From contig NC_133059.1 of assembly GCF_048771995.1 (NCBI RefSeq), positions 2,841,001 to 2,905,000 on the forward strand: 64,000 nt of DNA, read 5' to 3'. This document shows, piece after piece, positions 1 through 61,455 of the stretch (positions within the stretch are counted from its first letter, which is position 1; every line of letters starts with the position of its first letter). The stretch is from Taeniopygia guttata. Taxonomy: Eukaryota; Chordata; Aves; Passeriformes; Estrildidae. Under the pieces are notes generated by a model. It saw nothing but the letters and a program-made list of their open reading frames with translations. It was not told where the DNA came from and did not search any database. The translations under genes and the position numbers were made by a program.

Positions 1-3000
1 CCAAAAAATTGCAGAATAACCTCAAAAAATGCCCAAAAAAACCCATAAAATGCCCAAAAAAAACCCCAGAAATTCCCAAAAAATCCCAGAAATTCCTAAA
101 ATTTCTAAAATTCCCAAATTTCTGACCGGCAGCCTCGATAAACTCAAAAAAACCCTCAAAAACTTCCCAAAAATCACAAAAAAAAACCCAAAAAATCAAA
201 AAAACCCCATAAAATGCCCAAAACCCCCCAAATTTTCTCCCAAAAATTCCCCAAATTCCTAAAATTCCCAAATTTCTGACTGGTGGCTTCGATGTGCCAA
301 AAAAAGACCTCCTAAAATTCCCAAAAAATTGTAGAATAACCTCAAAAAATGTCAAAAAAATGCCAAAAAAAACCATTAAATGCCAAAAAAATCCCAAAAA
401 ATTCCCAAAAAGTCCCAAAATTCCCACAATTCCCAGAATTCCAAATTTCTGACCAGTGGCCTTGATATATCCCAAAAATAACCCCAAAAAATTCCCAAAA
501 ATTGCAAAAAAACCCCAAAAAATGTCCAAAAAACCCCATAAAATGCCCTAAAAACCCCCAAATTTTCCCCAAAATCCCCAAAAAATTCCCAAAATTCCTA
601 AAATTCCCAGAATTCCCTGAAATTTGAGCAGTGGCCTCAATGTACCCAAAAAAGACCTCCCAAAATCCCCAAAAAATTGCAGAATAACCTCAAAAAAATG
701 CCAAAAAAAGCCCAAAAAACCCCATAAAATGCCCTAAAACCCCACAAATTTTCCCAAAGAATTCCAAAAAAATTCCCAAAATTCCCAAATTCCCGAAATC
801 CCGGGATTCTGACCGGTGGCCTCGATGTACTGGATGCAGCGCTCGATGAAGACGGGGATGGGCCGCTCGGGGCTGACCACGCTGGCCAGGGGCACCCCAA
901 AAAAATCCCCAAAAAAACCCTAAAATCACCCCAAAATTCCCTAAAAATTCCCCAAATTCCCAAATTTCTGACCAGTGGCCTCGATGTACCCAAAAAAGAC
1001 CTCCTAAAATCCCAAAAAAAAATGCAGAATAACCTCAAAAAATGCCAAAAAAATGCCAAAAAAACCCGTAAAATGCCGAAAAAATCCCAAAAACTTCCCA
1101 AATTTTCCCAAAAAATTCCCCAAAAATTCCCAAAATCCGGAATTCTGAATGGTGGCCTCGATGTACTGGATTCAGCGCTCAATGAACCCAAAAAAACCCA
1201 AAAAATTGCGAAAAAATTCCTAAAAATGCCAAAAAACCCCCAAAAAAATTCCTAAAATCTCCCCAAAAGTCCCTAAAAATTCCCAAAATTCCCAAAAATT
1301 CCTGACAAATGGCCTCGATAAACCCAAAAAAACCCTCAAAAAATTCCCAAAAATCGCAAAAAAACCCCAAAAAAAGCAAAAAAAAACCCATAAAATGCCC
1401 TAAAACCCCCCAAATTTTCCCAAAAAATTCCCAAAATTCCCAAATTCCCGAATTCTGACCGGTGGCCTCGATGTACCCAAAAAAAAACCCCCAAAAATTG
1501 AAAAAAAATCCCAAAAAATGCCAAAAAAAAGCCAAAAATCCCCCATTAAATGCCAAAAAAATCCCAAAAAATTCCCAAAAAATTCCCAAAATTCCCGAAA
1601 TCCCGGAATTCCTGACCGGTGGCCTCGATGTACTGGATGCAGCGCTCGATGAAGACGGGGATGGGCCGCTCGGGGCTGACCACGCTGGCCCAAAAACCCC
1701 AAAAAAATCCCCAAAAAAAACCCCTAAAATCACCCCAAAATTCCCTAAAAATTCCCAAAAATTTCCTAAAATTCCCAAAATTCCAAGATTTCTGACCAGT
1801 GGCATTGATGGTGCCAAAAAATAACCCCAAAAAACTCCCAAAAATCGCTAAAAAGACCCCAAAAATGCCCAAAAACCCCATAAAATGCCCCAAACCCCCC
1901 AAAATTTCCCAAAAAATTCCCAAAAATTTCCCAAAAATTCCCAAAAATTCCCGGAATTCCAAAATTCCTGACAAATGGCCTCGATAAACCCAAAAAAACC
2001 CTCCAAAAATTCCCAGAAATTGCAAAAAAAAAACCCCAAAAATGCCCAAAAAACCCATAAAATACCTCAAACTCCCCCAAATTTCCAAAAAAATTCCCCG
2101 AAAATTCTCAGAATTCCCAAAAATTCCCGGAATTCCAAAATTCCTGACAAATGGCCTCGATAAACCCAAAAAAACCCTCAAAAAATTCCCAAAAATTGCA
2201 AAAAAACCCCAAAAAATGCCCAAAAAATCCCAAAAAAACCCATAAAATGCCCTAAAAAACCCCAAATTTTCCCAAAAAAATTCCCAAATTCCCAAATTCC
2301 CGAAATTCCGGAATTCTGACCGGTGGCCTCGATGTACTGGATGCGGCGCTCGATGAAGACGGGGATGGGCCGCTCGGGGCTGACCACGCTGGCCCAAAAC
2401 CACCAAAAAAATCCCCAAAAAAACCCCTAAAATCACCCCAAAATTCCCTAAAAATTCCCAAAATTCCCAAAAATTCCCGGAATTCCAAAATTCCTGACAA
2501 ATGGCCTCGATAAACTCAAAAAAACCCTCAAAAAATTCCCAAAAATCGCAAAAAAACCCCAAAAAATCCCAAAAAAATCCCCCCAACACCCCATAAAATG
2601 CCAAAAAAACCCCAAATTTTCAAAAGAAAAATCCCAAAAATTCCCAAAATTCCCCAAATTCACAAATTCCGGAATTGTGACCGGTGGCCTCGATGTACCC
2701 AAAAAAAACCCCAAAAAAATTCCCAAAAATTGAAAAAAATCCCAAAAAATGCCAAAAAAATGCCCTAAAAACCCCAAAATTTTCCCCAAAAATTCCCAAA
2801 AATTCCCAAAATTCCCGAATTTCCGGAATTCCTGACCGGTGGCCTCGATGTACTGGATGCAGCGCTCGATGAAGACGGGGATGGGCCGCTCGGGGCTGAC
2901 CACGCTGGCCCAAAAACCCCAAAAAAATCCCCAAAAAAAACCCCTAAAATCACCCCAAAATTCCCTAAAAATTCCCAAAATTCCCAAAATTCCCAAATTT

Positions 3001-4746: not shown

Positions 4747-4891
4747 CGGTGGCCTCGATGTACTGGATGCAGCGCTCGATGAAGACGGGGATGGGCCGCT
4801 CGGGGCTGACCACGCTGGCCAGGGGCACCCCGAAGTAGCTGCTCTCCCACGGCGCCTTGGACAGCGACGGGCGCGCCTTCGCCTTCGGCTT
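4747..4891 (-). CDS. ARHGAP35: ARHGAP35 exon 3, start of RhoGAP domain
   Basis: Acceptor CCGTCAG|AAG at 4892-4893 and donor ACCG|GTCAGA at 4745-4746 bound 145 bp. It opens with a basic Lys-Pro-Lys-Ala-Lys-Ala-Arg-Pro stretch, matching the polybasic segment before the human GAP domain, then [19 protein letters not shown] and the [12 protein letters not shown] helix that begin the Rho GTPase-activating fold. It joins exon 2 in phase 0 and ends in phase 1. The donor GTCAGA is weak against the vertebrate consensus, and its 3' edge is the source of the decoys in the following intron. Confidence 0.96.
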
Positions 4892-7800: not shown

Positions 7801-10800
7801 CCTAGAAAAATCCGGGAAAAATCCATGGAAAAATCCCCAGAATTTCAGGGAAAAATCCAGGAAGAATCCCAGGAAAAAAATCCCAGGAAAAATTCCTGGA
7901 AAAATCAGGGGGAAAGCCAGGGGAAAATCTGGGAAAAATCCATGGGAAAATCCAGGAAAAATCCCGGAAAAATCCCGGGAGTTTCAGGGGAAACACAGAG
8001 AAAACAGAGGGGAAATCTGGGATAAATCAGGGAAAATCCATGGGAAAATCCCCAGAATTTCAGGGGAAATCCAGGGAAAAATCCACGGGGAAAATCCCTG
8101 GAAAAAACAATGGAAAAATCCGGGAAAAACCCCTGGAAAAATCCGGGAAAAACCCTGGAAAAAACAATGGAAAAATTTAGGAAAAATCCGGGAAAAACCC
8201 TGGAAAAAACAATGGGAAAATTCAGGAAAAATCCCTGGAAAAATCCGGGAAAAACCCTGGAAAAAACAATGGAAAAAATCAGGAAAAATCCCTAAAAAAA
8301 TCCGGGAAAAACCCCGGGAGTTTCAGGGGAAACAGAGAGAAAACAGAGAGGAAATCAGGAAAAAATCCAGGAAAAATCTGGGAAAAATCTGGGAAAAATC
8401 CCTGAAACTCCAGGGAAAAATCCCAGAAAAAAATCCCAGGAATGTCAGGAAAAATCCATGGAAAAATCCAGGAAAAATCCAGGAAAAACCCCGGGAGTTT
8501 CAGGGGAAACAGAGAGAAAACAGAGAGGATATCAGGAAAAAAATCACGGAAAAATCTGGGAAAATCCAGGAAAAATCTGGGAAAAATCCCTGAAACTCCA
8601 GGGAAAAATCCCAGAAAAACATCCCAGGAAATTTCAGGAAAAATCCATGGAAAAATCCCTGGAAAAATCCAGGAAAAATCCTTGGAAATATCCGGGAAAA
8701 ACCCCGGGAGTTTCAGGGGAAACAGAGAGAAAACAGAGAGGAAATCAGGAAAAAAATCATGGAAAAATCTGGGAAAATCCAGGAAAAATCTGGGAAAAAT
8801 CCCTGAAACTCCAGGGGAAAATCCCGGAAAAAAGTCCCAGGAATTTCAGGAAAAATCCATGGAAAAATCCGGGAAAAATCCATGGAAAAATCGGGGGGAA
8901 ATCCACGGAATTCCAGGGAAAATCCATTCAAACCCCACCTTGGTGTCCTCCTGAAGCTCCTGAGATCCTCCACTGACCACAGGATGACCACTGAGATGAC
9001 CACTGACCACTGGGATGACCTCAGGGACATTCCACCATTCCCATCCCTCCTTGACCTTGACCACCACCCCAAAGTGACCCCTCCAAGCCCCACCTCGGTG
9101 TCCTCCTGAAGTTCCTGAGATCCTCCACTGACCACTGGGATGACCACTGACCCCAGGGATGACCACAGGGACATTCCACCATCCCACCCCTCCTTGACCT
9201 TGACCACCACCCCAAGATGACCTCTCCAAGCCCCACCTTGGTGGTCCTCCTGAAGCTCCTGAGATCCTCCACTGACCACTGAGATGACCACAGGGACATT
9301 CCACCATTCCCACCCCTCCTCAAGGTTGCCCACCACCCCAAGACGCCCCCTCCAAACCCCACCTCGGTGTCCTCCTGAGGTTCCTCAGGATGTTCCTCCT
9401 GCATGGATCCTCCACTGACCACTGGGATGACCACTGGGCCATCCCACCCCTCCTCAAGCTTGTCCACCACCCCAAGATGACCCCTCCAAGCCCCACCTCG
9501 GTGTCCTCCTGAAGCTCCTGAGATCCTCCACTGACCACAGGATGACCACTGGGATGTTCCACCATTCCCACCCCTCCTTGACCTTGCCCACCACCCCAAA
9601 ACGACCCCTCCAAGCCCCACCTTCACCCCAAGCCCCACCTTGGTGTCCTCCTGAAGCTCCTGAGATCCTCCACTGGGAGGATCCATCCACATCCACATCC
9701 ATCCACAGGGATGACCACTGACCATGGGACCATTCCCATCCCTCCTTGACCTTGACCATCACCCAAGATGACCCCTCCAAGCCGCACCTCGGTGTCCTCC
9801 TGAAGCTCCTGAGATCCTCCACTGACCACTGAGATGACCACAGGGACGTTCCACCATTCTATCCCTCCTTGACCTTGACCACCACCCCAAGATGACCCCT
9901 CCAAGCCCCACCTTCACCCCAAGCCCCACCTCGGTGTCCTCCTGAAGTTCCTGAGATCCTCCACTGACCACTGGGACGACCACAGGGACATTCCACCATT
10001 CCCATCCCTCCTTGACCTTGACCACCACCCCAAAGTGACCCCTCCAAACCCCACCTTCACCCCAAGCCCCACCTCGGCGTCCTCCTGAAGTTCCTGAGAT
10101 CCTCCACTGACCACAGGATGACCACTGAATGACCACTGAGATGACCACAGGGATGACCACTGACCATGGGACCATTCCCACCCCTCCTTGACCTTGACCA
10201 CCACCCCAAGATGACCCCTCCAAGCCCCACCTTGGTGTCCTCCTGAAGCTCCTGAGATCCTCCACTGACCACTGAGATGACCACAGAGACATTCCACCAT
10301 TCCCACCCCTCCTTGACCTTGACCACCAGCCCAAGATGACCCCTCCAAGCCCCACCTTGGTGTCCTCCTGAGGCTCCTCAGGATGTTCCTCCTGGGGGAT
10401 CCTCCACAGACCACAGGGATGACCACAGGGATGACCACTAAGATGACCACTGACCACTGGGCCATTCTATCCCTCTTTGACCTTGACCACCACCCCAAGA
10501 TGACCCCTCCAAGCCCCACCTTCACCCCAAGCCCCACCTCGGTGTCCTCCTGAAGCTCCTGAGGTCCTCCAATGACCACAGGATGACCACAGGGATGACC
10601 ACTGACCCCAGGGATGACCACAGGGACATTCCACCATTCCCACCCCTCCTTGACCTTGACCACCACCCCAAGATGACCCCTCCAAGCCCACCTTGGTGTC
10701 CTCCTGAAGTTCCTGAGATCCTCCACTGACCATAGGATGACCACTAAGATGACCACTGACCACTGGGCCATTCTATCCCTCCTTGACCTTGACCATCACC

Positions 10801-13800
10801 CCAAGATGACCCCTGCAAGCCCCACCTTCACCCCAAGCCCCACCGTGGTGTCCTCCTGAAGCTCCTGAGATCCTCCACTGACCACAGGATGACCACAGGG
10901 ACATTCCACCATTCCCACCCCTCCTTGACCATGACCCTCACCCCAAAGTGACCCCTCCAAGCCCCACCTTGGTGGTCCTCCTGAGGCTCCTGAGGATGTT
11001 CCTGCGGCGCGGATCCTCCCCGTCGGCCGCCTCGAAGGCCATGCCGGCGCTGTCCCCCTTGTACCCGCCATGGCCGCCGGGTTCTTCATCCTTCTTCCTG
11101 CCCGAGCCCAGCTCATCGTCGCTGCCGACGCCCAGGCCGGGCCGGTAGCCGGCGAAGCGGCCGAGCCGCGCGCAGCGGGCGCGGTAGAGCCGCGGTTTGG
11201 CGGCGGTGACGGCGGCGCGGCGGCCGCGGCGCTCCAGGGAGCCGCTGTCCATCTCGCTGTCGGAGCCGTTGCCGCTGCCGCCGTTGGACGGCGCCTTGTT
11301 GATGTTGCGCACGGTGATGATCTTGCCCTGGGTGCTGTCCTGAGGAACCGAGTAGATGTTCTCCTCCTCGCTGCGCGGCTTGGCCACCGCGTCCATGGGC
11401 TCGGCGTAGTCCGAAGGGTCGAAGCAATCCGCCGCCAACCACGCCGACGATGACGCCGAGCGCCGCCGGACGTCACGGTGGCCGTCGGCCGCCTCGAAAT
11501 GCGACGGCGCTTTGGGTTTGGGCGGGACCTTGGAGGACGCCGCGACAAACCCGGAGGTGTCACCACCATCCGGCTCGGCGCAGAGTTTGGCGATCTCCTC
11601 GCGGAAGGGGCTGGAGCCCGGCAGCGCCTCGGCGTCCTCCTCGGAGTCGGCGGCGTGGGAGTTGCAGAGCGGCGATCCGGCGCGCGGCGAGTTGAAGACG
11701 TCCTCGCCGGCGCCGCAGGCCTCGGCGGCGTTGTCGTACATGTGCGCCGCCTCCACCATGTTCTTCTTGTCCAGCGCGTCCTTGAGGAAGGGCTGGAAGA
11801 CGTCCAGCTTGGCGTGGCCGCGCGGCAGGGCGGCGAACCGCGCCTCCATCTCCTGCGCCATCTCCTCGCCCTCGGCCAGCTGCTCGCGGCTCACCTCGTC
11901 CTCCGCCTCGGCGCCGTCGGCCAGCGCCACCAGCTGCACCGGCACGATGTCCGGCACGTCGGCCAGGAAGGCGCGCAGCGTGGCCAGCGAGGCGCGGCGC
12001 CGCGCGGCGTAGAAGGCGATGTAGCCGTGCACCAGGCGGCTCTTGCGCAGCCCGAAGGCCGCGTGGTACGACAGCAGCGCCAGCTCCACCCGCCGCCGCT
12101 GCGGCCCCACCGCCGCCTCCAGCAGCACCGCCGCGCCGCCGCCCGGCGCCGCCCGGCACAGCTGCGCCTGCAGGATGGGCAGCAGCGCCTCCTCGGCGCT
12201 CACCGGGTCGCCGCACATCAGGCACGCCGCCAGGCGCAGCTCGGCGCCGTCGGCCGCGTCCCGGGGGCCCGGCGCCGGCGCGGCGCCGAGGCCGCGTTTG
12301 GCGTCCAGCAGCCCCTTGAGGACTTGGCCGATCTGCTTCTCGTTGATGGTGCGGCCGTAGCCGATGCCGGCCGACGCCGGGTCCAGGAAGACGCACTGCA
12401 GCTTGCCGGCGATGCGCTGGCCCTGCTGGATCAGGCTCTGCAGCGTCTCGCCGCCGCCCTCGCCGCCGCCGCGCTTGTTGACCAACACCAGCGCCAGGGG
12501 CAGCTGCGGCGCGGCGTGGCCGTCGCGGCGGCCGGCGGCCGACTCGCGGCTCTTCTCCACGCTCTCCACCACGTAGGACAGCGACTCCTTGGAGTTGTAG
12601 AGGCACAGGCAGCCGTGCGGTTGGAAGGTCGGCGTTTGGAAGGCGTTGACCGGCAGCCGCACGTTGCCCTCGATGGGCCTCAAGGCCAACTCGTAGACCT
12701 TGCCCTCGATGACGTACTTGTCGTCGTCGGCGCAGAGCGCGCGGATCTCGTTGGCCAGCTCGCGCGCCAAGCCGTCCTTGCCCAGGATGACCAGGTTGAT
12801 GCGGTCGGCGTCGGCGTCGCCGCGCCGCTGGGCCGGCCGGGCGAAGCGCGAGGCCAGCAGCTGCTCCACGCGGGCGTCCACGCAGGCGCCGCAGCCGGGA
12901 CACGTCTCCTTGGTGGGGTGGTAGACGAAGTGGATGTGCTTGAGGACCAGCGCGTCGCGCTCGGCCTGCAGCTTCTGCAGCGCCTTGAAGCGCTGCTCCT
13001 CACCCAACACCTCCTGGATGACGCCCATCTTCTCCTTGCTGGGCTTGGCGTCCAGCTCCAGCTCGTAGAAGAGCTCCGAGTACTCCAGGAGCAGCTCCTG
13101 GAAGTCCTCCTTGGCTTTGTCGATCAGGCGCTTCTGGTGCTTGCCGTAGATGTCCACGTAGACCGACTCGTCCAGCCAGAGGTAGAAGTCCTCGTTCATG
13201 ATGAAGCTGCGCGCCTCCTCCCAGGGTTTGCCGGGCGTGACGAAGGGCGAGCTCTCCAGGTTGTCCAGGAACGCCCTCCGCATCTCGGCGCGCTTCCGCT
13301 CGGCGCGCAGCTTCTCCAGGTGGGCCTCGTAGAGCTGCTCGGCCGCCGGCGTCTCCAGCAGGTCGAAGGGGATGCGCTCGTTGTCGGCGTCGTCCACGTG
13401 GTCGCTGGCGTCCCACGGCGTCTCCTCCAGCACCACGAACCACTTGAGGAAGTCGGGTTTGGCCTCCAGCAGCTTCTCGGCCTTGGCGCGGCTCAGGCGG
13501 TCGATCTCGTCCAGATCCGGCACGAGGGCGTCCAGCGCCTGCGGCAGCAGCGCCAGGTACGCGCGGCGGCGCCGCTCGACGTGCTCCTGCTTGAGGCGCT
13601 GCGCGTGCTGCAGGAAGAGCTTCTTGGCCTTCTGGGTGCCCTCCAAGTAGACGTAATCTTGGTACTCCGGCGCCGACCGCATGCGCCGGCTGACGTCCGG
13701 CCACGCCTCGTGGTGGCTCTTGACCACGCGGCTGACCAGCCACTCGTAGCGGTCCTTGGCGGCGGCGATCTGCTGGCTCTGCTGCTTGAGCGCCTCGAAG

Positions 13801-14576
13801 TAGGGGATGATCTTGGCTTTGCCGCGGCTCTTGTCCAACAGCTGCACCAAGGTGCCGAACGCCAGCTCCACGTTGACGTTGGAACGCGCCGAGGTCTCCA
13901 CCACCTGCAGGTTCTTCTTGCCCAGGGCGAAGGCGTGGGCGTCGCGGATGTAGCGCTCCACGCCCTCGTCGCACTTGGTCAGCACCACCACCACGGGTTT
14001 CTTGGTTTTGGCCAGCTGGTTGTAGAGGTTGGAGACGAACTTGAGCTGCTCGTCGAAGTTGCGGTTCATGCCGCGGCTGACGTCCACGCAGAGCAGGAAC
14101 CCGTCCACCGGCAGCTTGCCGTCGGGCATCTGCTTCTGCTCGAAGTCCTGCTCCAAGCCCAGCTGGTCGGTGCAGAAGTACATCAACTTCTCCGCCGACG
14201 CCAACTTGGTGGCCGCCGCCCTCTTGATGTAGGGCTGCAGCGCGGTGCTGCGGTGCGGCTGGAAGGTCTGGTCGTCGATGAACTCCGTCTGCTCCACCAC
14301 GTGGACGCGGCACTCGGCGCACTCCTCCAGCGGCCGCGCCACCTCGCCCCAGTAGAGGAAGTGGTCATTGTTGACCACCCTGCCCCCGAAGTCACTGGTG
14401 CTGAGCACCGAGGTGTGCTCCAAGTGGAAGTCGTCGGCGCCGGGCCGCACGAATCGGTTGCAAAGGCAAGATTTGCCGACGCCGCACTGGCCTTTCTCCT
14501 TCTCGGTGCCGGACAGCCCCACCACGCTGACGTTGTAGGTGGGCGTGCGGCCATCTTGCTTGCGGGCCATCATCAT
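4747..14576 (-). CDS. ARHGAP35: ARHGAP35 (p190A RhoGAP), N-terminal part of the coding region
   Basis: GTPase-activating protein that switches off RhoA at the plasma membrane and in the cytoplasm, linking integrin and growth-factor signals to actin. The window holds two coding exons, 10968-14576 (1203 codons) and 4747-4891 (48 codons plus one base), together 1251 residues of a protein of about 1500. The sequence follows human p190A closely from the MMMARK start through the N-terminal GTPase-like domain, FF-domain region, two pseudo-GTPase regions, the paired phosphotyrosine sites and the basic stretch before the GAP domain. The remaining GAP exons, including the one expected to carry the arginine finger, lie beyond base 1. 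ARHGAP5 is the alternative but has a different N-terminus. The intron between the exons (4892-10967) is all minisatellite. Confidence 0.97.
4894..8930. repeat. ARHGAP35 intron 2 minisatellite, GGAAAATCC type
   Basis: About 4 kb of purine-rich plus-strand repeat built from short blocks such as GGAAAATTCCAGGAAAATTC and CCCGGGAGTTAAAGGGGAAA, with a higher order near 190-220 bp in the left half (the block GAATAGAGGGGAAAGAA recurs) and a shift to GGAAAAATCCGGGAAAAACC text after about 8050. It starts immediately upstream of the exon 3 acceptor. No exon sequence is captured in it. Open reading frames across it are by-products of the period. Confidence 0.9.
8931..10967 (-). repeat. ARHGAP35 intron 2 array of exon-2 donor copies
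   Basis: Fourteen units of about 120-190 bp (mean near 145) directly downstream of exon 2. Each repeats the exon's 3' edge and donor, on the plus strand CCCCACCTTGGTGTCCTCCT, on the minus strand AGGAGGACACCAAG|GTGGGG. Units start near 8934, 9090, 9230, 9355, 9490, 9635, 9779, 9925, 10068, 10217, 10347, 10535, 10681 and 10843. The copies at 9355 and 10347 still encode the Arg-Arg-Asn-Ile-Leu-Arg stretch of the real exon; the others have a deletion there. The spacer (TGACCACAGGGATGACCACT, CTCCTTGACCTTGACCACCA) is shared. GT is kept in every unit. The array ends at the true donor. Confidence 0.93.
10968..14576 (-). CDS. ARHGAP35: ARHGAP35 exon 2, large N-terminal coding exon
   Basis: A single exon of 1203 codons. 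Start ATG at 14576-14574 in the context GACCATG, the first of three ATGs giving the family's MMM start. Residues 29-36 form a P-loop (GQCGVGKS) and 200-204 the TKCDE motif of the N-terminal GTPase-like domain; FF-domain text follows from about 265 to 535 ([52 protein letters not shown]), then a CPGC-AC cysteine motif and the pseudo-GTPase regions ([29 protein letters not shown]). DYAEPMD (Tyr1057) and IYSVPQD (Tyr1075) match the human Tyr1087/Tyr1105 pair, with the same spacing of 18, that bind p120RasGAP. Donor CCAAG|GTGGGG at 10966-10967. Strongly GC-biased, with alanine- and glycine-rich changes from human and about 26 fewer residues. Confidence 0.97.
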
Positions 14577-14587
14577 GGTCGCAGCAT
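14573..14587 (-). promoter_or_regulatory. Minimal uORF overlapping the ARHGAP35 start codon
   Basis: Upstream ATG at 14587-14585 in a strong context (GCCGCCATG) reads Met-Leu-Arg-Pro and stops at a TGA that overlaps the main start as ATGA. This geometry is typical of termination-reinitiation control. If the predicted noncoding exon 1 is right, the same stop also ends a longer 56-codon uORF starting at 24911. Confidence 0.55.
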
Positions 14588-43439: not shown

Positions 43440-43595
43440 TCAGCGGAGCAGGTGGAAGGTGAGCCAGTACATGAGGAGCGGCTGCGCGGCGCCGATGGCC
43501 GTGGTCAGGTACAGCCGCAGCTGGTTCCGGGCGCCGCGCACCGGGACCCCCTCGGCCGCCGCCTCCGACAGCAGCTTCAGCCTCAGCGTGCGGAT
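43440..43595 (-). CDS. YIF1B: YIF1B exon 8 and stop
   Basis: 156 bp, residues 251-301, TGA at 43442-43440. [38 protein letters not shown] and a last membrane segment [12 protein letters not shown], matching the human HLVR end. Acceptor TTCTGCAG|ATC at 43596-43597. Confidence 0.97.
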
Positions 43596-49500: not shown

Positions 49501-52500
49501 TTGGGCAATTTGTTGATTTTTTGGAATTTTGCTGCCTTGGAAATTGACTTTTTGAAGGGAATCAGGACTTTTCAAGCAGGATTTTGGGTGAATTCGTGGC
49601 GATTTTGGGTGAATTCGTGGCCGTTTCGGGGCATTCCGAGTGGGATTTTTTCGGGGCTGTCGGGGAGGGATTTTTGGGGTGAAAAACGGGGATTTTGGCA
49701 CTGACCCCACGTATTTGTAGCCGGCGAAGGCCAGGAGGTCGATGGGGGTGAGGTCGGTGCTGACGGTGACCAGGTAGAGGCTCAGGAGGACGCTCAGAAC
49801 CTCCAGCAGCAGCCAGGCCAGGGCTGAGCTGGCCACCAGCCCCAGGCTGTCCGGGGAAAACCTGCGATTTTACCCCAAAAAAAGTCACATTTTATCAGAG
49901 TTCCAGCACAGCCACCAGCCCCAGGCTGTCCGGGGAAAACCTGCGATTTTACCCCAAAAATTCACATTATTTGGGTGTTTGTCAGAGTTCCAGCACAGCC
50001 ACCAGCCCCAGGCTGTCCGGGGAAAACCTGGAATTTCAACCCAAAAAATTCACATTTTATCAGAGCTCCAGCACAGCCACCAGCCCCAGGCTGTCCGGGG
50101 AAAACCTGCGATTTTACCCCAAAATTCACATTATTTGGGGTGGGGAAAATGGGGGGAAAATAGGTAAAATAGGGGGAAAAAATAATGAGGAAAAACGGGG
50201 GGAAAATGGGGAAAAACGGGGAAAAAATTGAGAAAAAATGGGGGAAAAATGGGGGGAAAATGGGGGGAAAATGGGGAAAAACTGAGAAAACACGGGGAAA
50301 AAATGGGGGAAAAATGGGGAAAAAATGGGGACAAATTGGTGGTAAAATGGGGGGGAAATGGGGAAAAAATGGAGAAAAACGGGGGAAAAAATGGGGGGAA
50401 AATAGGGGAAAAAATGGGGAAAACGGGGAAAAAGGGGGGAAAATGGGGGGAAAAATGGGGGGGAAATGGGGAAAAAATAGGGGAAAAATAGGGGGGAAAA
50501 TGGGGAAAAATGGGGAAAAAATGGGGGGAAAAGGGGAAAAATGGGGAAAAAATGGGGGAAAAATGGGGAAAAAATGGGGAAAAACGGGGGAAAAATGGGG
50601 GGAAAATGGGGGGGAAATGGGGGAAAATGGGGAAAAAATGGAGAAAAAATGGGGGAAAAACGAAGGGGGAAATGGAGAAAAATGGGGGAAAAAATGGGGG
50701 AAAATGGGGGAAAAAATGGGGAAAAAATTGGAAAAAAATGGGGAAAAACTGAGGGAAAATGGGAGAAAAACGGGGAAAAAATGAGGAAAAACTGAGGGAA
50801 AATGGGAGAAAAACGGGGGAAAATAGGGGGGGAAATGGGGAAGAAATGGGGATTAAATGGGGGAAAATGGGGAAAAAATGGGGGAAAATGGGGAAAAACG
50901 GGGAAAACGGGGGGGAAATGGGGAAAAACGGGGAAAAAATGGGGGGAAATGGGGAAAAACAGGAAAACATGGGGGGAAAATGGGGGAAAACAGGGACAAA
51001 TTGGGGAAAAAATGTTTGGGATTGGTGAAATTCCCGTGAATTTGGTCAGAGTTCCAGCACAGCCACCAGCCCCAGGCTGTCCGGGGAAAACCTGCGATTT
51101 TACCCCAAAAATTCACATTATTTGGGTGTTTGTCAGAGTTCCAGCACAGCCACCAGCCCCAGGCTGTCCGGGGAAAACCTGCAATTTTACCCCAAAATTC
51201 ACGTTATTCGGGGTGGGGAAAAAGGGGAAAAATGGGGGGAAAATAGGGGGAAAAAATGGGGGGAAAATGGGGAAAAAATTGGAAAAAACGGAGGGAAAAT
51301 GGGAGAAAAACGGGATAAAAACTGAGGAAACACGGGGAAAAAATGGGCGGAAAATGGGGGAAAAATGGGGAAAAATGGGAAAAAACAGAGGAAAAATGGG
51401 GGAAAAATTGGAAAAAAACGGGGAAAAAACGGAGGGAAAATGGGGAAAAAATGGGGAAAATAGGGGGGAAAATAGGGGGGAAAATGGTGAAAAACGGGGG
51501 AAAAAATGGGGAAAAACTGAGGGAAAATGGGAGAAAAACGGGGGAAAATGGGGGGTGGGAAATGGGGAAGAAATGGGGATTAAATGGGGGAAAATGGGGA
51601 AAAAATGGGGGGAAAATGGGGAAAAACGGGGAAAAATGGGGGTAAAATGGGGAAAAACGAGGGAAAAATGGGGGAAAATTGGGGAAAAGCCAGGAAAAAA
51701 ATGGGGACATATTAGGGAAAAACTAGGGGAAAATGGGGGAAAAAGGGGGGAAAAATGGGGACAAATTGGGGGGAAAAATGGGGGGAAAATGGGGGGAAAT
51801 AGGAGGAAAAATGGGGGGGAAATGGGGAAAAATGGGGAAAAAATGGGGAAAAAATGGGGGGAAAATGGGGGAAAAAATGGGGAAAAACAGGGAAAAAATG
51901 GGGAAAAAAATTGGAAAAAATGGAGGGAAAATGGGGAAAAAATGGGGAAAAAATGGGGGAAAAATCAGGGGAAAATGGGGAAAAGCCAGGAAAAAAATGG
52001 GGACAGATTAGGGAAAAACTAGGGGAAAATGGGGGAAAAAAGGGGAAAAAATTGGGGGGAAAATGGGGGAAAAAATGGGGGGAAAATGGGGAAAATCTAG
52101 GGGGAAATGGGGAAAAAAATGGGGGAAAAAATGGGGAAAAAATGGGGGAAATGGGGAAAAAATGGGGGAAAATTAGGAAAAAAACAGGGGGGGAAATGGG
52201 GAAAAAATGGGGAAAGAATTGGAAAAAAGGGAGGGAAAATGGGAGAAAAATGGAAAAAAAAAAGGAAAAAACAGAGGGAAAATGGGGGAAAAACGGGGAC
52301 AAATGGGGGAAAAACGGGGACAAATTGGGAAAAAATGGGGGAAAACTGGGAAAAAGCCGGGAAAAAAAATGGGGAAAAATTGGGGAAAAACTGGGGGAAA
52401 ATGGGGGGGAAAAATAGGGAAAAACGGGGGAAATAACGGGGGGAAAATGGGGAAAAATGAAGAGAAAAAGGGGAAAAAACAGGGAAAAACGGGAGAAAAA

Positions 52501-55500: not shown

Positions 55501-58500
55501 TTTGGGTGTCCCGGGGGGGATTTTGGGGTTCCCGGGGTGTTTTGAGGGGATTTTGGGGTTCCCGGGGGGGATTTTGGGGTTCCCGGGGGTTTTTGGGGTC
55601 CCCACCCGGGATGTAGAGGTCGGGAGCGTTGACATCGAAGCGCGGCGCCACCGGCGTGTCCTGCTGGTACCGAACCTGCCAGTCCTGGGGCACGGGGGGT
55701 CAGAACCCCAAAATATCCCAAAAACACCCCAAAATAACCCAAAACACCAAAAATACCCCAAAAACAGCCCAAAATAACCCAAAAATGGACCAATATACCC
55801 CAAAAACAGCCCAAAATACCCCAAAAACAGCCCAAAATAACCCAAAATACCACAAATATCCCAAAAACACCCAAAAACAACCCAAAACACCCCAAAACAC
55901 CCAAAAATACCCCAAAATACCCCGAAATAACCCAAAACAACCCCAAAACACCCAAAAATACCCCTAAAACACACAAAACTACCCAAAAAACACCCCAAAA
56001 ACGGCCCAAAATAACCCAAAAACAACCCAAAAACGGCCCAAAATAACCCCAAAACAACCCAAAAACGGCCCAAAACAACCCAAAAACAACCCAAAAACAG
56101 CCCAAAACCACCCAAAAATACCCCAAAAACACCCAAAAATAACCCAAAAATACACCAAAACCACACAAAACTACCCCCAAAACACCCCATAATAGCCAAA
56201 AATACCCCAAAATACCCCCAAAATGGCCCAAAATAACCCAAAAATACCCCTAAAATAGCCCAAAAACACCCCAAATATCCCCAAAACACCCCAAAATACC
56301 CCCAAAACAGCCCAAAATACCCCCAAAACATCCCAAACCCCCCCCAAAAGAACCCAAAACCCCCCAAAATTGACCAATTTACCCCAAAGGAGCCCCAAAC
56401 CCCCCAAAAATTCCTCACAAACCTCTCCCAGTCCTCCCAGTAACCCCAAATCCCATCCCAGTAACCCCAAAATCCCCTCCCAGTCCCTCCCAGTCCATCC
56501 CAGTCCCTCCCAGTCCATCCCAGTTCCCTCCCAGTCCCTCCCAGTCCCTCCCAGTCCCTCCCAGTCCATCCCAGTTCCCTCCCAGTCCCTCCCAGTTTGC
56601 CCAGTTTGCCCAGTACCGGGTGGCGGAAGGGGAAGAGCAGCAGCCGCAGTTTCCGCCCCACGTAAACAGAATCCACGGCAAAGTAATACTTGAGGCGGCC
56701 CACGGGCAGCCAGCGGCACAGCTGGGAGCAGACCAGTACGGACCAGTATGGACCAGTACGGACCAGTATGGACCACTACGGACCAGTATAAACCGGCCCA
56801 GCCCGCCTCGCGCCGCTTTCCCTCCCTCCCGCGGCTTTTTCCCATTTTTTCTGGGTTTTTTCTCCTTTTTTCTCCAATTTTTTCCCAATTTTTGGGGTTT
56901 TTTTTCTCCCATTATTCCCCATTTTTTCTGGTTTTTTTTTCCTATTTTTTCTGGTTTTTTTTCTGCTTTTTTTTCCCATTTTCCCCCAATTTTTCCCATT
57001 TTTTCCCCATTTTTTCTGGATTTTTTTTCCCATTCTCCCCCAATTTCTTCCCATTTTCCCCCATTTTTTCTGAGTTTTTTCCCCATTTTTCCCCATTTTT
57101 TCCTGGTTTTTTTCCTATATTTCCCCATTTTCCCCCATTTTTGGGGGGGATTTTTCTCCATTTTTTCTCCTATTTTTTCCTATTTTTCCCCATTTTTTTC
57201 TGGATTTTCCCCCCATTTTCCCCCCATTTTTTCTGGGTTTTTTCCCCATTATTCCCCATTTTTTCCTAGTTTTTTTTCCTATTTTTCCCCATTTTTTTCA
57301 GGTTTTTTTTCCTATTTTTTTCCCATTTTTCCCCTATTTTTTCCCATTTTTCCCCTATTTTTTCCCATTTTTAACATTTTTTTCCTTCATATTTTCCCAT
57401 TTTCCCCCCATTTTTTCTGGATTTTTTCCCATTTTTTCCCTTAATTTTTCCCATTTTTTCCCCAATTTTTCCTATTTTTTTCCCCATTTTTCGATTTTTT
57501 CCCGTATTTTTTCTGCTTTTTTTTTTTCTCCATTTTTCCCTCCGTTTTTTCCCATTTTTCCCCATTTTCCCCCCATTTTTTACTTGAGGCGGCCCACGGG
57601 CAGCCAGCGGCACAGCTGGGGGCGGTACGGACCAGTATGGACCAGTATGGACCAGTACGGACCAGTACGGACCAGTACAGACCAGTATAAACCAGCCCAG
57701 CCCGCCTCGCGCCGCTTTCCCTCCCTCACGCGCCTTTTTCCCGTTTTTTCTGGGTTTTTTCCCCATTTTTCCTTTTTTTTTCTGGTTTTTTTTTCCTATT
57801 TTTTCCCCATTTTCCCCTATTTTTTCCCCATTTTCCCCCTATTTTCCCCCCATTTTTCCCTTATTTTTTCTGGATTTTTTTCACATTTTTTCTGGATTTT
57901 CCCCCCATTTTCCCCCCATTTTTTCTGGGTTTTTTTCTCCATTTTTTCCCATTTTCCCCCTATTTTTTCCCATTTTCCCCATTTTTCCCCCATTTTTTCT
58001 GTTTTTTTTTCTCCGCTTTTTCCCATTTTCGCCCTATTTTTCCCCATTTCTTCCCATTTTTCCTAGCTTTTTTTCCTCCATTTTTTTCCCACTTTTCCCC
58101 ATTTTTCCCCATTTTTTCTGGTTCTTTTCCCCATTTTTTCTGCTTTTTTTTTCTCCATTTTTCCCATTTTTCCCTTATTTTTTCCCTTATCTTTTCCCTT
58201 TTTTTTCCCTTATTTTTTCCCATTTTCCCCCCATTTTTCCCCATTTTTCTGGTTTTTTTCCCCATTTTTTCCAGCTTTTTTTTTCCTCAAATTTTTCCCA
58301 TTTTCCCCCTATTTTTCCCCATTTTTCCCCTATTATTTCCCCTATTTTTCCCCATTTTCCCCCTATTTTCCCCCCATTTTTTTCTGGATTTTTTTCAAAT
58401 TTTTCCCCAACTTTTTTCCATTTTTCCCCTATTTTCCCCCATTTTTCGGGTTTTTTCCCGTATTTTTTCTGCTTTTTTTTTTTTCTCCATTTTTCCCTCC

Positions 58501-61455
58501 GTTTTTCCCCATTTTTCCCCATTTTTTCCCATTTTCCCCCCATTTTTTACTAGAGGCGGCCCACGGGCAGCCAGCGGCACAGCTGGGGGCGGACCAGTAC
58601 GGACCAGTATGGACCAGTATAAACCAGCCCAGCCCGCCTCGCACCGCTTTCCCTTCCTCACGCGGCTTTTCCCCATTTTTTTCGGGTTTTTTTCTCATTT
58701 TTTTCCCATTTTTTCCTTATATTTTCCCTTTTATTTAGGGCTTTTTTTCCCCAATTTTTTTCCCATTTTTTCCTTATCTTTCCCCCCAGTTTTTCTGGAT
58801 TTCTTTCCCATTTTTCCCCATTTTCCCCCATTTTTTCTGGATTTTTTTTCCCATTTTTTCCCCATTTTTCCCCTATTTTTTCCCATTTCTCCCCCCCATT
58901 TTTTCTGGATTTTTCCCCCATTTTTCCCCCATTTTTCTGGGTTTCTTCTCCATTTTTCCCATTTTTCCCCCTATTTTTTCCCATTTTCCCCCATTTTTTC
59001 TGGATTTTTTTCCCATTTTTTTCCCTTATTTTTTCCAATTTTTTCCCTTTATTTTTTCCAATTTTTTCCCTTTATTTTTTCCCATTTTTTCCCTATTTTT
59101 TCCTTATTTTCCCCCATTTTTTCTGGATTTTCCCCCCATTTTTTCTGGGTTTTTTCCCCATTTCCCCCCATTTTTTTCTGGCTTTTTTCCCATTTTTCCC
59201 CATTTTCTACCCATTTTTTACTTGAGGCGGCCCACGGGCAGCCAGCGGCACAGCTGGGGGCGGTTCCGACCGGTTCACACCAGTTCACACCAGTACAGAC
59301 CAGTATAAACCAGCCCAGCCCGCCGCGCGCCGCTTTCCCTCCCTCACACGGCTTTTTCCCATTTTTTTCTGGGTTTTTTCTCTTTTTTTTCCCATTTTTT
59401 CCCCATTTTTCCCCTATTTTTTCCTATTTTTTCCCTTATTTTTTCCCATTTTTTCCCTTATTTTTTCCCTTTTTTTTCCCCTTTTTTTCCCATTTTTCCC
59501 CTATTTTTTCCCCAATTTTTCCCTTATTTTTTCCCATTTTCTCCCTTACTTTTTCCCATTTTTTCCCATTTTTTTCCCTTATATTTTTCCCATTTTTCCC
59601 CTTTTTTTGGGGTTTTTTTTCCCCTATTTTTTCCCATTTTTTCTGGATTTTTTTCCCATTTTTCCCCATTTTTTCCCCATTTTCTCCCCATTTTTTACTT
59701 GAGGCGGCCCACGGGCAGCCAGCGGCACAGCTGGGGGGTCAGACCAGTACGGACCAGTATGGACCAGTACAGACCAGTACAGACCGGTACAGACCAGCCC
59801 AGCCCGCCGCGCGCCGCTTTCCCTCCCTCCCACGGCTTTTTCCCATTTTTTTCTGGCCTTTTTTTGCCTTTTTTTTCCCATTTTTCCCCTATTTTTTCCC
59901 CTATTTTTTCCCATTTTTTCCCTTATTTTTTCTGGATTTTTTTCCTATTTTTCCCATTTTTCCCCTATTTTTCCCCATTTTTGGGGTTTTTTTTTCTCCA
60001 TTTTTCCCCTATTTTTTCCCTTTTTTTCCCTTATTTTTTTCTGGATTTTTTTCCTATTTTTTCCCATTTTTCCCCTATTTTTCCCCATTTTTCCCCTATT
60101 TTTCCCCATTTTTTCTGGGTTTTTTCCCCATTTTCCCCCCCCATTTTTTCCCATTTTTTCCCCATTTTTTCTGGATTTTTTTCCCATTTTCGCCATTTTT
60201 TTCTGGTTTTTTTTTTCCTATTTTTCCCCATTTTTCCTCTATTTTTCCCATTTTTCCCCTATTTTTTCCCTTTTTTTTCTGAATTTTTTCCCCTCATTTT
60301 TTTCCATTTTTCCCCTCATTTTTTTCCATTTTTCCCCTTTTTTCCCCATTTTTTCTGGTTTTTTCCCTCCATTTTTTCCCCATTTTTTCTGGATTTTTTT
60401 TCTCCATTTTTCCTCCCATTTTTTCCTTATTTTTCCCCATTTTTCCCCTATTTTTTCCCATTTTTTCCCATTTTTTTCTCAATTTTTTTCCCTGTTATTC
60501 CCGGTTATTCCCCCCGTTATCTCCCAGTTATTCCCCCCGTTATTCCCGGTTATTCCCCCCGTTATTCCCGGTTATTTACCCCGTTATTCCCGGTTATTTC
60601 CCCCCGTTATTTCCCCCGTTATTCCCAGTTATTTTCCCCCATCATTCCCCGTTATTCCCGGTTATTCTCCCCGTTATCCCCCATTTTTCCCCGTTATTCC
60701 CCCCCGTTATTCCCCGTTATTCCCCCCGGTTATTCCCCGTTATCCCCCCCGTTATCCCCCCGTTATTCCCTCCGTTATCCTCCCCCGTTATTCCCGGTTA
60801 TTTCCCCCCCGTTATCCCCCCGTTATTCCCGGTTATCCCCCCCGTTATTCCCGGTTATTTCCCCGTTATCTCCCGTTATTTCCCCCCGTTATTCCAGGTT
60901 ATTCTCCCCCGTTATTCCCGGTTATTCCCGGTTCCCCCCCGTTATCCCCCCCGTTATCCCCCGGTTATTCCCGGTTATCCCCCCGTTATTCCCAGTTTTT
61001 TCCCCCGTTATTTCCCCCCGTTATTCCCGGTTATCCCCAGTTATTCCCCCGGTTATTCCCGGTTATCCCCCGTTATTCCCGGTTATCCCCCCGTTATTCC
61101 CGTTATCCCCCCGCCGCTCACGTTGCCCTCCACGTGCGAGGCGAGGCTGCTCCCGTAGGCCGCGGCCAGGGAGCTCACGGGCTCGCTCAGGAACGCCGCG
61201 GGCGCCCCGAACGCGGCCGAGGAGGAGGAGGCGGCGGCCGAGGCCGAAGGCGGCGGCGGCGGAGCCCCGAAACCGCGGCCCGGTGAGGCCCCGGTAGCGC
61301 TCGTGTCCTCGAACAGAGGCCGCGGATCGGCCAAGCGGGCGGGCCCGCGGCGTTTTGGGGCTAAAAACGAAAGAAAATGTTAATTTGAAGCGGTTTGAAA
61401 CACGAATTTCCCCTCACGGCGCCGCCCGCGACTCACGGGGAGCGGCGGGATCCAT
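43440..61455 (-). CDS. YIF1B: YIF1B, Yip1-interacting factor homolog B, complete
   Basis: Multi-pass membrane protein of the early secretory pathway (ER-Golgi intermediate and Golgi) that partners Yip1-family proteins and, in mammals, helps deliver the 5-HT1A receptor to dendrites. Eight coding exons (61437-61455, 61122-61360, 56617-56721, 55606-55684, 53540-53597, 49706-49861, 46227-46320, 43440-43595) join in consistent phases to 906 bases, 301 residues; human is 314. The cytosolic N-terminus is Pro/Ala/Ser rich. [20 protein letters not shown] is identical to human YIF1B and unlike YIF1A. Hydrophobic segments follow at about 150-166, 178-198, 207-232, 236-250 and 280-300, as in the five-helix Yip1 fold. 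Convergent with AP2S1. Confidence 0.97.
43596..44935 (-). repeat. YIF1B intron 7 array of seven exon-8 acceptor copies
   Basis: Seven units of 166-206 bp upstream of exon 8. Each has an AG followed by about 55 bp of exon (Ile-Arg-Thr-Leu-Arg-Leu-Lys through Ala-Ala-Glu-Gly), then leaves the exon at CGTTTTGGGGCCGATTTTGG. Copied exon starts on the minus strand are 43770, 43976, 44152, 44318, 44494, 44680 and 44864. AG is kept in all; the farthest two have a changed 3' part (TCCCAGAGCAGC on the plus strand) and 44494 reads ATCTGGACACTG. The copies share the real exon's synonymous codon choices, so they are recent relative to the gene. Confidence 0.97.
44936..46200 (-). repeat. YIF1B intron 7 second array, about 180-bp units
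   Basis: Seven units of roughly 140-195 bp marked by plus-strand CCCCAAACCCTCCCTGAGCA, CAAGGAAATTTTGGTGAATT and AATTCCTGCGAATTTTACC. On the minus strand the last block gives (G/C)AG|GTAAAATTC-type donor-like strings in some units (for example near 45257 and 46138). It begins just after the exon 7 donor, but no exon 7 coding sequence is recognisable in it. Confidence 0.88.
46227..46320 (-). CDS. YIF1B: YIF1B exon 7
   Basis: 94 bp, completing Gly219 and encoding residues 220-250: [20 protein letters not shown] and [11 protein letters not shown], membrane helices of the Yip1 domain. Acceptor GGTTCCCAG|GATG at 46321-46322; donor TTCACC|GTGAGT. Confidence 0.96.
46323..46935 (-). repeat. YIF1B intron 6 first array, TTTTACCCCAAAATTC type
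   Basis: About 27 units of 20-24 bp: TTTTACCCCAAAATTGTGGG and ATTTCACCCCAAATTCTGGG, directly upstream of the exon 7 acceptor. No exon sequence is captured. Confidence 0.9.
46936..49705 (-). repeat. YIF1B intron 6 array with four exon-6 donor copies
   Basis: 2.8 kb of about 190-bp monomers (plus-strand marks GATTTTGGGTGAATTTGTGG, TTTCATTGGGATTTTTGGGT, GGGACTTTTTGAAGGGAATC). Four monomers carry the 3' edge of exon 6 and its donor, plus-strand CACTGACCCCACGTATTTGT, with about 60 bp of exon (Thr-Asp-Leu-Thr-Pro-Ile-Asp through Tyr-Lys-Tyr-Val). Copied exon ends are 47223, 47983, 48362 and 48936; the real one is 49706. Distances of 760, 379, 574 and 770 bp are close to 4, 2, 3 and 4 monomers. Donors read GTCAGT or, at 48362, GTTAGT. 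Confidence 0.95.
49706..49861 (-). CDS. YIF1B: YIF1B exon 6
   Basis: 156 bp, completing Arg167 and encoding residues 168-218: [40 protein letters not shown] and [11 protein letters not shown]. Acceptor AATCGCAG|GTTTTC, donor GTGG|GTCAGT. The only exon here with decoys on both sides. Confidence 0.97.
49862..50130 (-). repeat. YIF1B intron 5 exon-6 acceptor copies, proximal block
   Basis: Three near-identical units of about 80-87 bp: acceptor (T)CGCAG|GTTTTCCCCG, about 35 bp of exon (Phe-Ser-Pro-Asp-Ser-Leu-Gly-Leu-Val), then GCTGTGCTGGAACTCTGA. Copied exon starts are 49940, 50027 and 50105, upstream of the real start at 49861. Two more copies lie at 51091 and 51178. Confidence 0.96.
50131..51040. 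repeat. GGGGAAAAATGGGG purine array, first block
   Basis: About 0.9 kb of GGGGAAAAAT / GGGGGAAAAT units of 9-12 bp, almost pure purine plus T on the plus strand, wedged between two groups of exon-6 acceptor copies. In the YIF1B transcript it is CCCCATTTTT. No gene. Confidence 0.95.
51041..51215 (-). repeat. YIF1B intron 5 exon-6 acceptor copies, distal block
   Basis: Two more copies of the exon 6 junction, exon starts 51091 and 51178, again ending in GCTGTGCTGGAACTCTGA and keeping GCAG. They are about 1 kb from the first three because the purine array has expanded between them. Confidence 0.95.
51216..52970. repeat. GGGGAAAAATGGGG purine array, second block
   Basis: 1.75 kb continuing the same 10-bp repeat, with longer blocks such as AGCCAGGAAAAAAATGGGGA near 51690, 51990 and 52610 indicating higher-order units of about 300 and 620 bp. 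Confidence 0.95.
52971..53538. repeat. GGGATTTTTGGGG array next to the exon 5 donor
   Basis: T/G-rich repeat of 20-27 bp units (AAAAAGGGATTTTTGGGG), ending at the YIF1B exon 5 donor (GTACAAAAATCCCC on the minus strand). The donor's intronic side resembles the repeat; no exon bases are copied. Confidence 0.85.
53540..53597 (-). CDS. YIF1B: YIF1B exon 5
   Basis: 58 bp: completes Ala148, encodes [18 protein letters not shown] (149-166) and two bases of Arg167. Acceptor CCCTCACAG|CC, donor AACAG|GTACAA. First membrane segment of the Yip1 domain. Confidence 0.96.
53600..55604. repeat. YIF1B intron 4 minisatellite, GATTTTGGGGGTCC type
   Basis: From about 53880, some 65 units of 20-30 bp (GATGGATTTTGGGGGTCCTG, GCTGGATTTTGGGGTTCCCG) run to the exon 4 donor; 53600-53870 is a looser T/G-rich lead-in (GGGGAATTTTGGGGAGGTTT). 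G4-5 runs about every 20 bp make quadruplexes likely on the plus strand. No exon copies. Confidence 0.93.
55606..55684 (-). CDS. YIF1B: YIF1B exon 4
   Basis: 79 bp, residues 122-147 plus one base of Ala148: [20 protein letters not shown] followed by PDLYIP, the most conserved cytosolic segment before the membrane domain. Acceptor GTGCCCCAG|GAC, donor CCCGG|GTGGGG. Confidence 0.97.
55690..56370. repeat. YIF1B intron 3 A/C-rich minisatellite
   Basis: About 0.7 kb of CCCAAAATAACCCAAAAACA text with 10-12 bp subunits just upstream of the exon 4 acceptor. No gene. Confidence 0.9.
56420..56616. repeat. CCCAGTCCCT array beside the exon 3 donor
   Basis: About eighteen 10-12 bp units (CCCAGTCCCT, CCCAGTCCAT, CCCAGTTCC) ending against the YIF1B exon 3 donor. 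The same monomers make up the 2.4-kb array in AP2S1 intron 2. Confidence 0.93.
56617..56721 (-). CDS. YIF1B: YIF1B exon 3
   Basis: 105 bp, residues 87-121: [20 protein letters not shown] and [15 protein letters not shown]. Human has [20 protein letters not shown] here, so the first six residues are unusually diverged while the rest is conserved. Acceptor TGCTCCCAG|CTG follows a weak pyrimidine tract made of repeated GTACTGGTCC; donor CACCCG|GTACTG is weak. Confidence 0.93.
56722..60480 (-). repeat. YIF1B intron 2 ATTTTTCCCC array with four exon-3 acceptor copies
   Basis: 3.8 kb of plus-strand pyrimidine-rich TTTTTCCCCA units of about 10 bp. Four islands repeat the exon 3 junction with its upstream region: plus-strand GCGGCCCACGGGCAGCCAGC, then CACAGCTGGGGGCGG, then several GGACCAGTATGGACCAGTAC units and CAGCCCGCCTCGCGCCGCTT. 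Copied exon starts are 57615, 58582, 59253 and 59730 (real 56721). Each keeps CCCCCAG|CTGTGCC and 33 bp of exon, then runs into TAAAAAATGGGG, giving an in-frame TAA after Leu-Lys and also a new donor-like CAA|GTAAAA. Confidence 0.95.
60485..61115. repeat. CCCCGTTATTCCCGGTTATT minisatellite
   Basis: About 55 units of 10-13 bp (CCCGTTATTC, CCGGTTATTC, CCCCCGTTAT) running up to the exon 2 donor of YIF1B. No exon copies. Confidence 0.94.
61122..61360 (-). CDS. YIF1B: YIF1B exon 2
   Basis: 239 bp from acceptor CGTTTTTAG|CCCC to donor GGCAAC|GTGAGC. Encodes [20 protein letters not shown], a Pro/Ser/Ala-rich linker with [18 protein letters not shown], and [20 protein letters not shown], matching human [20 protein letters not shown] and FLADPVSNMAMAYGSSLA. 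The end (SHVEGN) is about five residues shorter than human. The codon at 61334 is TTG (Leu), not a start; the protein begins in exon 1. Confidence 0.95.
61437..61455 (-). CDS. YIF1B: YIF1B exon 1, start
   Basis: ATGGATCCCGCCGCTCCCC|GTGAGT: 19 bp giving MDPAAP and one base of Pro7, joined across a 76-bp intron to the KRR segment. The start context is GCCGCCATGG, optimal Kozak. The total of 301 residues and the alignment of the following KRR and DPRPLF motifs with human support this start over the internal TTG. Confidence 0.9.

Follow-up and report, generated by a model that had tools for sequence, protein, structure and literature searches.

The stretch of DNA analysed here (64 kb, C36:2841001-2905000; referred to below as the window) belongs to C36, a contig of 4.45 Mb in an assembly of 1.14 Gb and 41 contigs, which on account of its size, repeats and gene content appears to represent a dot chromosome. 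Three genes were placed in the window exon by exon: ARHGAP35 and YIF1B on the minus strand and AP2S1 on the plus strand. The 13 coding exons with GT/AG junctions provide 24 curated splice junctions; the principal features are presented in Table 1. The identity of ARHGAP35 exon B was assigned by tblastn with a piece of p190RhoGAP. Exon A of this gene gave three Pfam matches over the cut-off (PF19518, PF16512 and PF23083), all to p190RhoGAP domains. The match of YIF1B exon 8 to the Pfam YIF1 entry (E 0.0002) falls under the curated cut-off. AP2S1 exon 1 and the 5′-most exons of ARHGAP35 and YIF1B were not located in the window.

Table 1. Exons and arrays of exon-edge copies in the window (coordinates are those of the window).
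Feature	Coordinates	Strand	Remarks
ARHGAP35 exon B donor array	126..4746	-	27 copies, mean spacing ~171 bp (4620/27)
ARHGAP35 exon B	4747..4891	-	authentic donor G/GTCAG (exon/intron)
ARHGAP35 exon A donor array	8938..10967	-	14 copies, spacing 124-182 bp
ARHGAP35 exon A	10968..14720	-	large coding exon; FF and pG1/pG2 domains
AP2S1 exon 2 acceptor array	27623..28366	+	four 168-bp units with 26-32 nt of exon
AP2S1 exon 2	28367..28516	+	
AP2S1 exon 3 acceptor array	30973..32795	+	four copies with 42 nt of exon
AP2S1 exon 3	32796..32909	+	
AP2S1 exon 4	33022..33081	+	without copies
AP2S1 exon 5 acceptor array	34245..36007	+	ten copies with 13-36 nt of exon
AP2S1 exon 5 (terminal)	36008..36109	+	
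YIF1B exon 8 (terminal)	43440..43595	-	
YIF1B exon 8 acceptor array	43596..44900	-	seven copies, spacing 166-206 bp, median 176
YIF1B exon 6 donor array	47222..49705	-	four copies, spacing 770, 574, 379 and 760
YIF1B exon 6	49706..49861	-	
YIF1B exon 6 acceptor array	49862..51178	-	five copies with 30 nt of exon
YIF1B exon 3	56617..56721	-	
YIF1B exon 3 acceptor array	56722..59730	-	four copies with 35 nt of exon

Tandem repeats detected with TRF cover 0.87 of the non-coding bases of the window versus 0.03 of the coding bases, and the intergenic stretches are also filled with arrays. The mean coverage in 20 other stretches of C36 is likewise 0.87. At the non-dot loci, several of which overlap, it amounts to 0.00-0.02 in 10 of 12 cases, and to 0.58 and 1.00 in the remaining two. 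Near the start of contig C1, stretch L045 (C1:30001-32500) is filled by a satellite with a 191-bp unit. Expansion spares certain introns, e.g. AP2S1 intron 3 (32910-33021), which has a length of 112 bp and contains no repeated 16-mers, between neighbouring introns of 4279 and 2926 bp. The introns between positions 50001 and 60000 of the window are very strand-asymmetric, with a GC skew that reaches an absolute value of 0.8 and may be positive or negative with respect to transcription. Upstream of YIF1B (61497-62027), a tandem unit of approximately 267 bp contains an open frame of 88 residues, which is almost identical in the next tandem copy.

The arrays listed in Table 1 contain copies of the neighbouring exon edge. 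Our recount gave 79 copies at nine of the 24 junctions, in three genes, with the same figures for each junction as in an earlier note on this DNA, which had reported about 79. The nine affected junctions named there were recovered, while its total of "about 27" junctions is replaced by 24, a difference that the missing 5′ exons may explain. The splice dinucleotide is carried by 76 of the 79 copies, in keeping with the observation that the repeated units include the exon edge together with a live splice site. As that note had also held, many near-identical splice sites (4-27 copies) are left at each affected junction. Its view of a recurrent process is borne out as well, since the three genes show the same behaviour in arrays that are unrelated in sequence. 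In YIF1B exon 6, alone among the 13 exons, copies of both edges were counted, those of each edge lying in the intron that flanks it. The affected introns number nine of 14, several of them with one end located. The window had been chosen by the earlier reader for this very feature, and nine of 24 is therefore not to be taken as an unbiased rate.

The count depends on the search rule. For the ARHGAP35 exon B donor, it comprises 24 copies with GT (12-nt edge, no more than 3 mismatches), six of which match at just 9 of 12 nt, and 3 copies without GT. The search for ARHGAP35 exon A copies and the relaxed search for exon B copies demanded GT, and weak copies devoid of this dinucleotide are absent from the 79. 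A stricter rule, under which 14 or more positions of an 18-nt edge had to match and the dinucleotide had to be the same, retained 57 copies beyond the true junctions. Shuffled edges (50 per junction, searched over the whole strand with no dinucleotide demanded) produced a mean of 0.02-0.90 matches, with up to 16 for single shuffles, and the relaxed exon B test gave 0.04 matches per shuffled intron (maximum 1, n=50). Unshuffled edges found 0-13 matches on the opposite strand, the highest numbers being those of the AP2S1 exon 5 acceptor (13) and the YIF1B exon 7 donor (11), which indicates that certain edges resemble simple repeats present elsewhere. The counted copies differ from such control matches in that they retain (i) the dinucleotide (in all but 3 cases), (ii) a position in the adjacent intron and (iii) the register of the array.

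The earlier note had placed these structures in no named class. However, a class has been named: Hron et al. 2026 (PMC12954441) report from chicken dot chromosomes what they term "sequence stuttering", and use "exon stuttering" for copies of a lateral part of an exon together with its splice site. The length and score threshold published in that paper retained 8 of our 13 exons, with 44 hits within 7 kb; in a shuffle control with one shuffle per exon there was no hit of 20 nt. The literature search with "stuttering" terms yielded no other paper.

The arrays differ in structure. The exon part of the ARHGAP35 exon B copies has a length of either 13-17 nt or 74-85 nt (18 copies measured). In the exon A array, 13 copies share a form that, compared with the exon, lacks 1 nt near the border, the 14th copy is located at position 9236, and the median spacing is 143 bp. 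The AP2S1 exon 2 copies are spaced by 168 bp in 4/4 cases, those of exon 3 are embedded in an array of the 10-bp sequence GTCCCTCCCA, with spacings of 164-978 bp, and those of exon 5 lie 164-197 bp apart (median 176). The TRF consensus of this last array (34245-36034) reads GATGAG versus GATGAA in the true exon; at that site, exon and array are apparently not homogenised. In YIF1B, the spacings of the exon 6 donor copies are close to multiples of 190 bp, none of them being a single unit, while the exon 6 acceptor copies are 78-87 bp apart with one gap of 986 bp, and those of exon 3 are separated by 477-967 bp.

Multiplication of the copies by assembly error was considered, as dot chromosomes are difficult to assemble and one of the C36 stretches (L009) contains 1000 N. 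The window is nevertheless free of N, and its copies vary among themselves in spacing and substitutions. Moreover, according to PMC12954441, the same kind of structure in chicken PHF8 has been confirmed in raw nanopore reads. An artefact of this type is in our judgement highly improbable.

Outside the window, one of eight coding-like ORFs of C36 clearly has edge copies; the eight come from 60 ORFs that passed the coding-like filter, and their proportion is not an unbiased rate of capture. Pfam searches with the eight ORFs found CH, NAD_binding_10, PDZ and a weak EGF match in four of them and nothing in the other four. Among them are ORFs which we take to be SPTBN4, BLVRB, SIPA1L3, LTBP4 and CLPTM1. 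At the ends of the BLVRB, SIPA1L3 and L010 ORFs, repeat hits were left out of the count, as they were considered to fall beyond the end of the exon. The ORF with copies is an EGF-type exon (L019:6752) with ten copies of its acceptor edge, seven of the ten spacings being 166-183 bp. All ten copies of this array (L019:6752-9213, minus strand) have TAG, and the authentic acceptor has CAG. Relatives of AP2S1 were inspected as well. No copies were detected in the four exons of AP1S1, located on the small tandem-rich contig C34, or in the six exons of the non-dot relatives AP1S2 (C1) and AP1S3 (C11). The result for AP1S1 shows that location on a dot chromosome is not sufficient, and the comparison of AP-sigma paralogues is of limited use. 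Arrays do not always capture exon edges, and the window is above average in this respect.

Selection on the decoy splice sites, by which they would regulate splicing or intron retention, would be expected to preserve them. In a search that did not require the dinucleotide, 56 of the 59 copies found at eight junctions did indeed possess it; these copies had been admitted with 14 or more matches out of 18, and ARHGAP35 exon A (1/3 by the same rule) was excluded, as the deletion there shifts the register. However, the neighbouring exon bases are retained equally well (0.89-1.00), and the decoys thus show no sign of being selected for or against. The ten TAG copies of the L019 exon, compared with the real CAG, also suggest that such sites are not maintained at full strength. 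We regard this possibility as very improbable.

The number of independent captures is apparently small. The exon part is constant within the arrays of AP2S1 exon 3 (42 nt), YIF1B exon 3 (35 nt) and the YIF1B exon 6 acceptor (30 nt), and most of the other arrays contain one or two main lengths, ARHGAP35 exon B having two classes. The small number of exon-part lengths points to an origin in roughly nine or ten founder events, amplified individually, rather than in 79 captures.

The earlier note had suggested that duplication starts at splice junctions, or at R-loops over them, so that exon edges would be preferred seeds. The share of affected junctions (nine of 24) accords with this idea, as does the report in PMC12954441 that over 90% of chicken sources are no more than 1 base away from an exon border. 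Such border-adjacent sources are, however, forced if the unit must extend into the intron. Furthermore, tandem coverage drops towards the junctions, from 0.94-0.95 beyond 200 bp to 0.82 up to 200 bp, 0.78 up to 100 bp, 0.72 up to 50 bp and 0.48 in the first 25 bp of the intron, and the arrays fill intergenic DNA too. On the sense strand, 6 of 11 introns have a positive GC skew (just +0.01 in one of them), and so do 5 of 9 exon-seeded arrays; a skew that is mostly strong but of either sign argues against co-transcriptional R-loops as a common cause. Random duplication simulated with no targeting placed at least three decoys at 17-62% of junctions in 12 settings, which brackets the observed 38%; the simulation discarded exon-internal events, had no mutation and used arbitrary rates, and it shows just that targeting is unneeded. 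Initiation at splice junctions, whether by R-loops or repair, consequently appears improbable, and a mechanism specific to them is no longer needed.

The length of the repeated units was analysed in 28 stretches, i.e. twenty 10-kb stretches of C36 plus the window cut into eight pieces of 8 kb. The distance from a 20-mer to its nearest identical copy has its mode at 160-195 bp. Repeats at this distance are 2.7 times denser than those at 110-150 and 215-255 bp (95% CI 1.8-4.0, with stretches as units). Taken singly, 18 of the 28 stretches exceed both flanks in this range (20 exceed the left one and 25 the right one). The bin of 160-169 bp contains at least 15 repeated 20-mers in all stretches but one (27 of 28), compared with 19-23 of 28 stretches for the bins of 110-159 bp. 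A second rise in the distances is visible at 330-390 bp. Among the 20-mers of the 160-195 bp class, 182 of 5912 are found in more than one stretch, and the remaining 97% are private to a single one, from which it follows that the arrays are mostly unrelated. Nearly the same range was seen with TRF, where 49 of 91 arrays with a period of 100-299 bp fall within 155-199 bp. In the window, 5 of the 9 exon-edge arrays have no majority of spacings within 150-200 bp, the proportions being 5/14 in ARHGAP35 exon A, 1/4 in AP2S1 exon 3, and 0/5, 0/4 and 0/4 in the YIF1B exon 6 acceptor, exon 6 donor and exon 3 arrays, respectively.

Peaks near 165, 176 and 186 bp, read by eye, correspond to about 16, 17 and 18 helical turns. 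The test of helical power was not significant for the distances of 150-400 bp alone (p about 0.27), and gave p about 0.003 for 30-150 bp and about 0.007 for 30-260 bp; the 10.4-bp rule thus rests on the short periods. In the 275 best-scoring TRF arrays with periods of 15-150 bp, the periods form clusters at 19-22, 29-33, 40-44 and 51-52 bp, with few at 24-28 and 34-38 bp; short periods of two, three and four helical turns are thus favoured. Rayleigh R for this partly non-independent sample, in which the 19-22 bp class accounts for 107 of 275 arrays, was 0.56 at 10.4 bp, with a peak of 0.58 at 10.2 bp and values of 0.43-0.58 across 9.6-11.4 bp (0.43-0.49 at the two ends of this range). What this result conveys is less an exact period than a tendency towards units of two and three turns. 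The dominant period deviates from a multiple of 10.4 bp by no more than 1.3 bp in 23 of 28 stretches, where 7 are expected (18 of these periods are 20-22 bp), and in 6 of 11 stretches of other small contigs, where 3 are expected.

The distribution of A/T runs follows the same scale. On C36, runs of four A or T recur at 10-11, 21, 32 and 42 bp with a 2.5- to 3.8-fold excess, versus 0.4 at 16 bp. The helical spacing exceeds the anti-phase spacing in 25 of the 28 stretches of C36 and the window, in 9 of 12 of other small contigs and in 4 of 11 non-dot stretches, some of which overlap, and the numbers are tiny in some stretches. On C36 and the other small contigs, A/T triplets are offset from G/C triplets by half a helical turn. 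This alternation is missing from the non-dot DNA (26 kb), a small control with little tandem DNA that is silent on minisatellites elsewhere in the genome. The DNA of C36 left unmarked by TRF (L009-L028 and the window; exons outside the window included) is still phased, with values of 3.0 at 11 bp and 0.9 at 17 bp. It is the table of lags that is informative here. The period spectrum is not, as its best period is 10.15-10.30 bp in small contigs, at low contrast, and 11.75 bp in non-dot DNA, at similar contrast. Periodic An/Tn clusters (PATCs) occur in introns of C. elegans, where they protect germline expression in repressive chromatin. They resemble the present sequences in that runs of A or T are spaced by about 10 bp; the runs described here differ in that they are associated with tandem arrays and interspersed with G/C runs offset by half a turn, and the comparison concerns periodicity alone.

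Units of one or two nucleosomes, together with A/T and G/C runs placed by the helix, were read as nucleosome-related. The uneven unit lengths suggest that nucleosomes set or stabilise the unit. A more specific version is that stuttering is templated by nucleosomes: pieces would be cut to whole helical turns, preferably those of one nucleosome, and exon edges would be copied through overlap. If this is true, a nucleosome-sized piece beside an exon will often overlap it, with copying of the edge as the outcome, and gene bodies become private nucleosome-positioning satellites. We put this version forward tentatively. It competes with the possibility that helix-scale base repeats are sufficient, the 160-195 bp units being higher-order repeats of 10-21 bp with no nucleosome involved. 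The dominance of periods of 19-22 and 29-33 bp, towards multiples of which longer units will tend, speaks for such repeats, as does the helical phasing of TRF-free DNA of C36. Base repeats alone, on the other hand, predict no preferred size, yet the ranges of 110-150 and 215-255 bp are 2.7-fold poorer; nor is the second rise at 330-390 bp expected from them. Given the counts for single stretches and the weight of the 21-bp class, we hold the two possibilities to be equally probable, each of them conceivable but somewhat doubtful when taken by itself.

The best explanation of the data as a whole, and one which we consider likely, is that tandem duplication occurs locally and at random and is tolerated if it spans a single junction, in combination with a role of nucleosomes in the unit. 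Dot-chromosome introns would turn over through repeated local tandem duplication and loss, in the manner of weakly constrained DNA. By the general logic of splicing, a duplication across one junction should spare the mature mRNA, as the authentic exon would stay the outermost copy and the extra edges would fall in the intron with no partner splice site, whereas exon-internal or whole-exon duplications would be purged. Exon edges would ride along as passengers, to be amplified later with the rest of the unit. The 160-195 bp unit might be set by a nucleosome-sized piece arising from (i) lagging-strand fragments, (ii) nucleosome-phased breaks or (iii) out-of-register repair, in this model between positioned nucleosomes, and the helix-phased A/T and G/C runs would constitute the shorter base repeat. 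The copies, the founder breakpoints common to the members of an array, the absence of a focus at junctions and the unevenness of unit lengths were observed directly, whereas the random placement of duplications, the purging of exon-internal events and the involvement of nucleosomes are what we infer.

A unit-length rule for bird dot chromosomes was not found reported in the literature search. The word "nucleosome" is absent from the main text of PMC4992247 and occurs once, in the reference list, in PMC9974502. The main text of PMC6792250 contains neither "nucleosome" nor "period", and that of PMC12954441 none of the words "nucleosome", "period" and "microhomology". PMC6792250, which deals with avian hidden genes and their intronic tandem and G-quadruplex repeats, resembles the present case in that introns consist almost wholly of tandem repeats, and differs from it in that its available text includes neither exon-edge copies nor a unit-length rule.

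A close parallel for the unit length is found in centromeric satellites with units of nucleosome length and WW dinucleotides phased at 10 bp (PMC8122249, PMC12321929). These papers raise the possibility of a convergence of new satellites on nucleosomal phasing, and propose unequal exchange or break-induced replication as the route of satellite growth. Both nucleosome-length units and helix-phased A/T are present on C36; the combination holds for the pooled data, and in single stretches in 18 of 28 cases for length and 25 of 28 for phasing. Unlike those satellites, which form one centromeric family, the arrays of C36 are many, unrelated and distributed within and between genes (108 non-overlapping arrays with a period of at least 100 bp in about 264 kb).

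The arrays of the window themselves are a case of exon stuttering on what appears to be a bird dot chromosome; they are of a known kind, probably in a different bird. In PMC12954441, as here, the adjacent intron of dot-chromosome genes contains direct tandem copies in which an exon edge is partly repeated along with its splice site, and the ranges overlap: 4-27 copies in the window versus 1-44 in chicken, with exon parts of 13-85 nt versus 20-187 nt. Stuttering was reported there for 190 of 5572 dot introns, with the mechanism left open; the proportion of nine of 14 introns in the window is far higher, but the window was selected for the feature. The present case differs in that it probably comes from another bird, apparently a passerine, and in that unit lengths were measured and are uneven. 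It thereby contributes curated examples of exon stuttering from what is probably a second bird lineage. The copying of exon edges has already been described in kind, and it is the unit-length rule that is worth testing, as unit length expressed in helical turns and nucleosomes is a measurable rule that bears on how stuttering arises.
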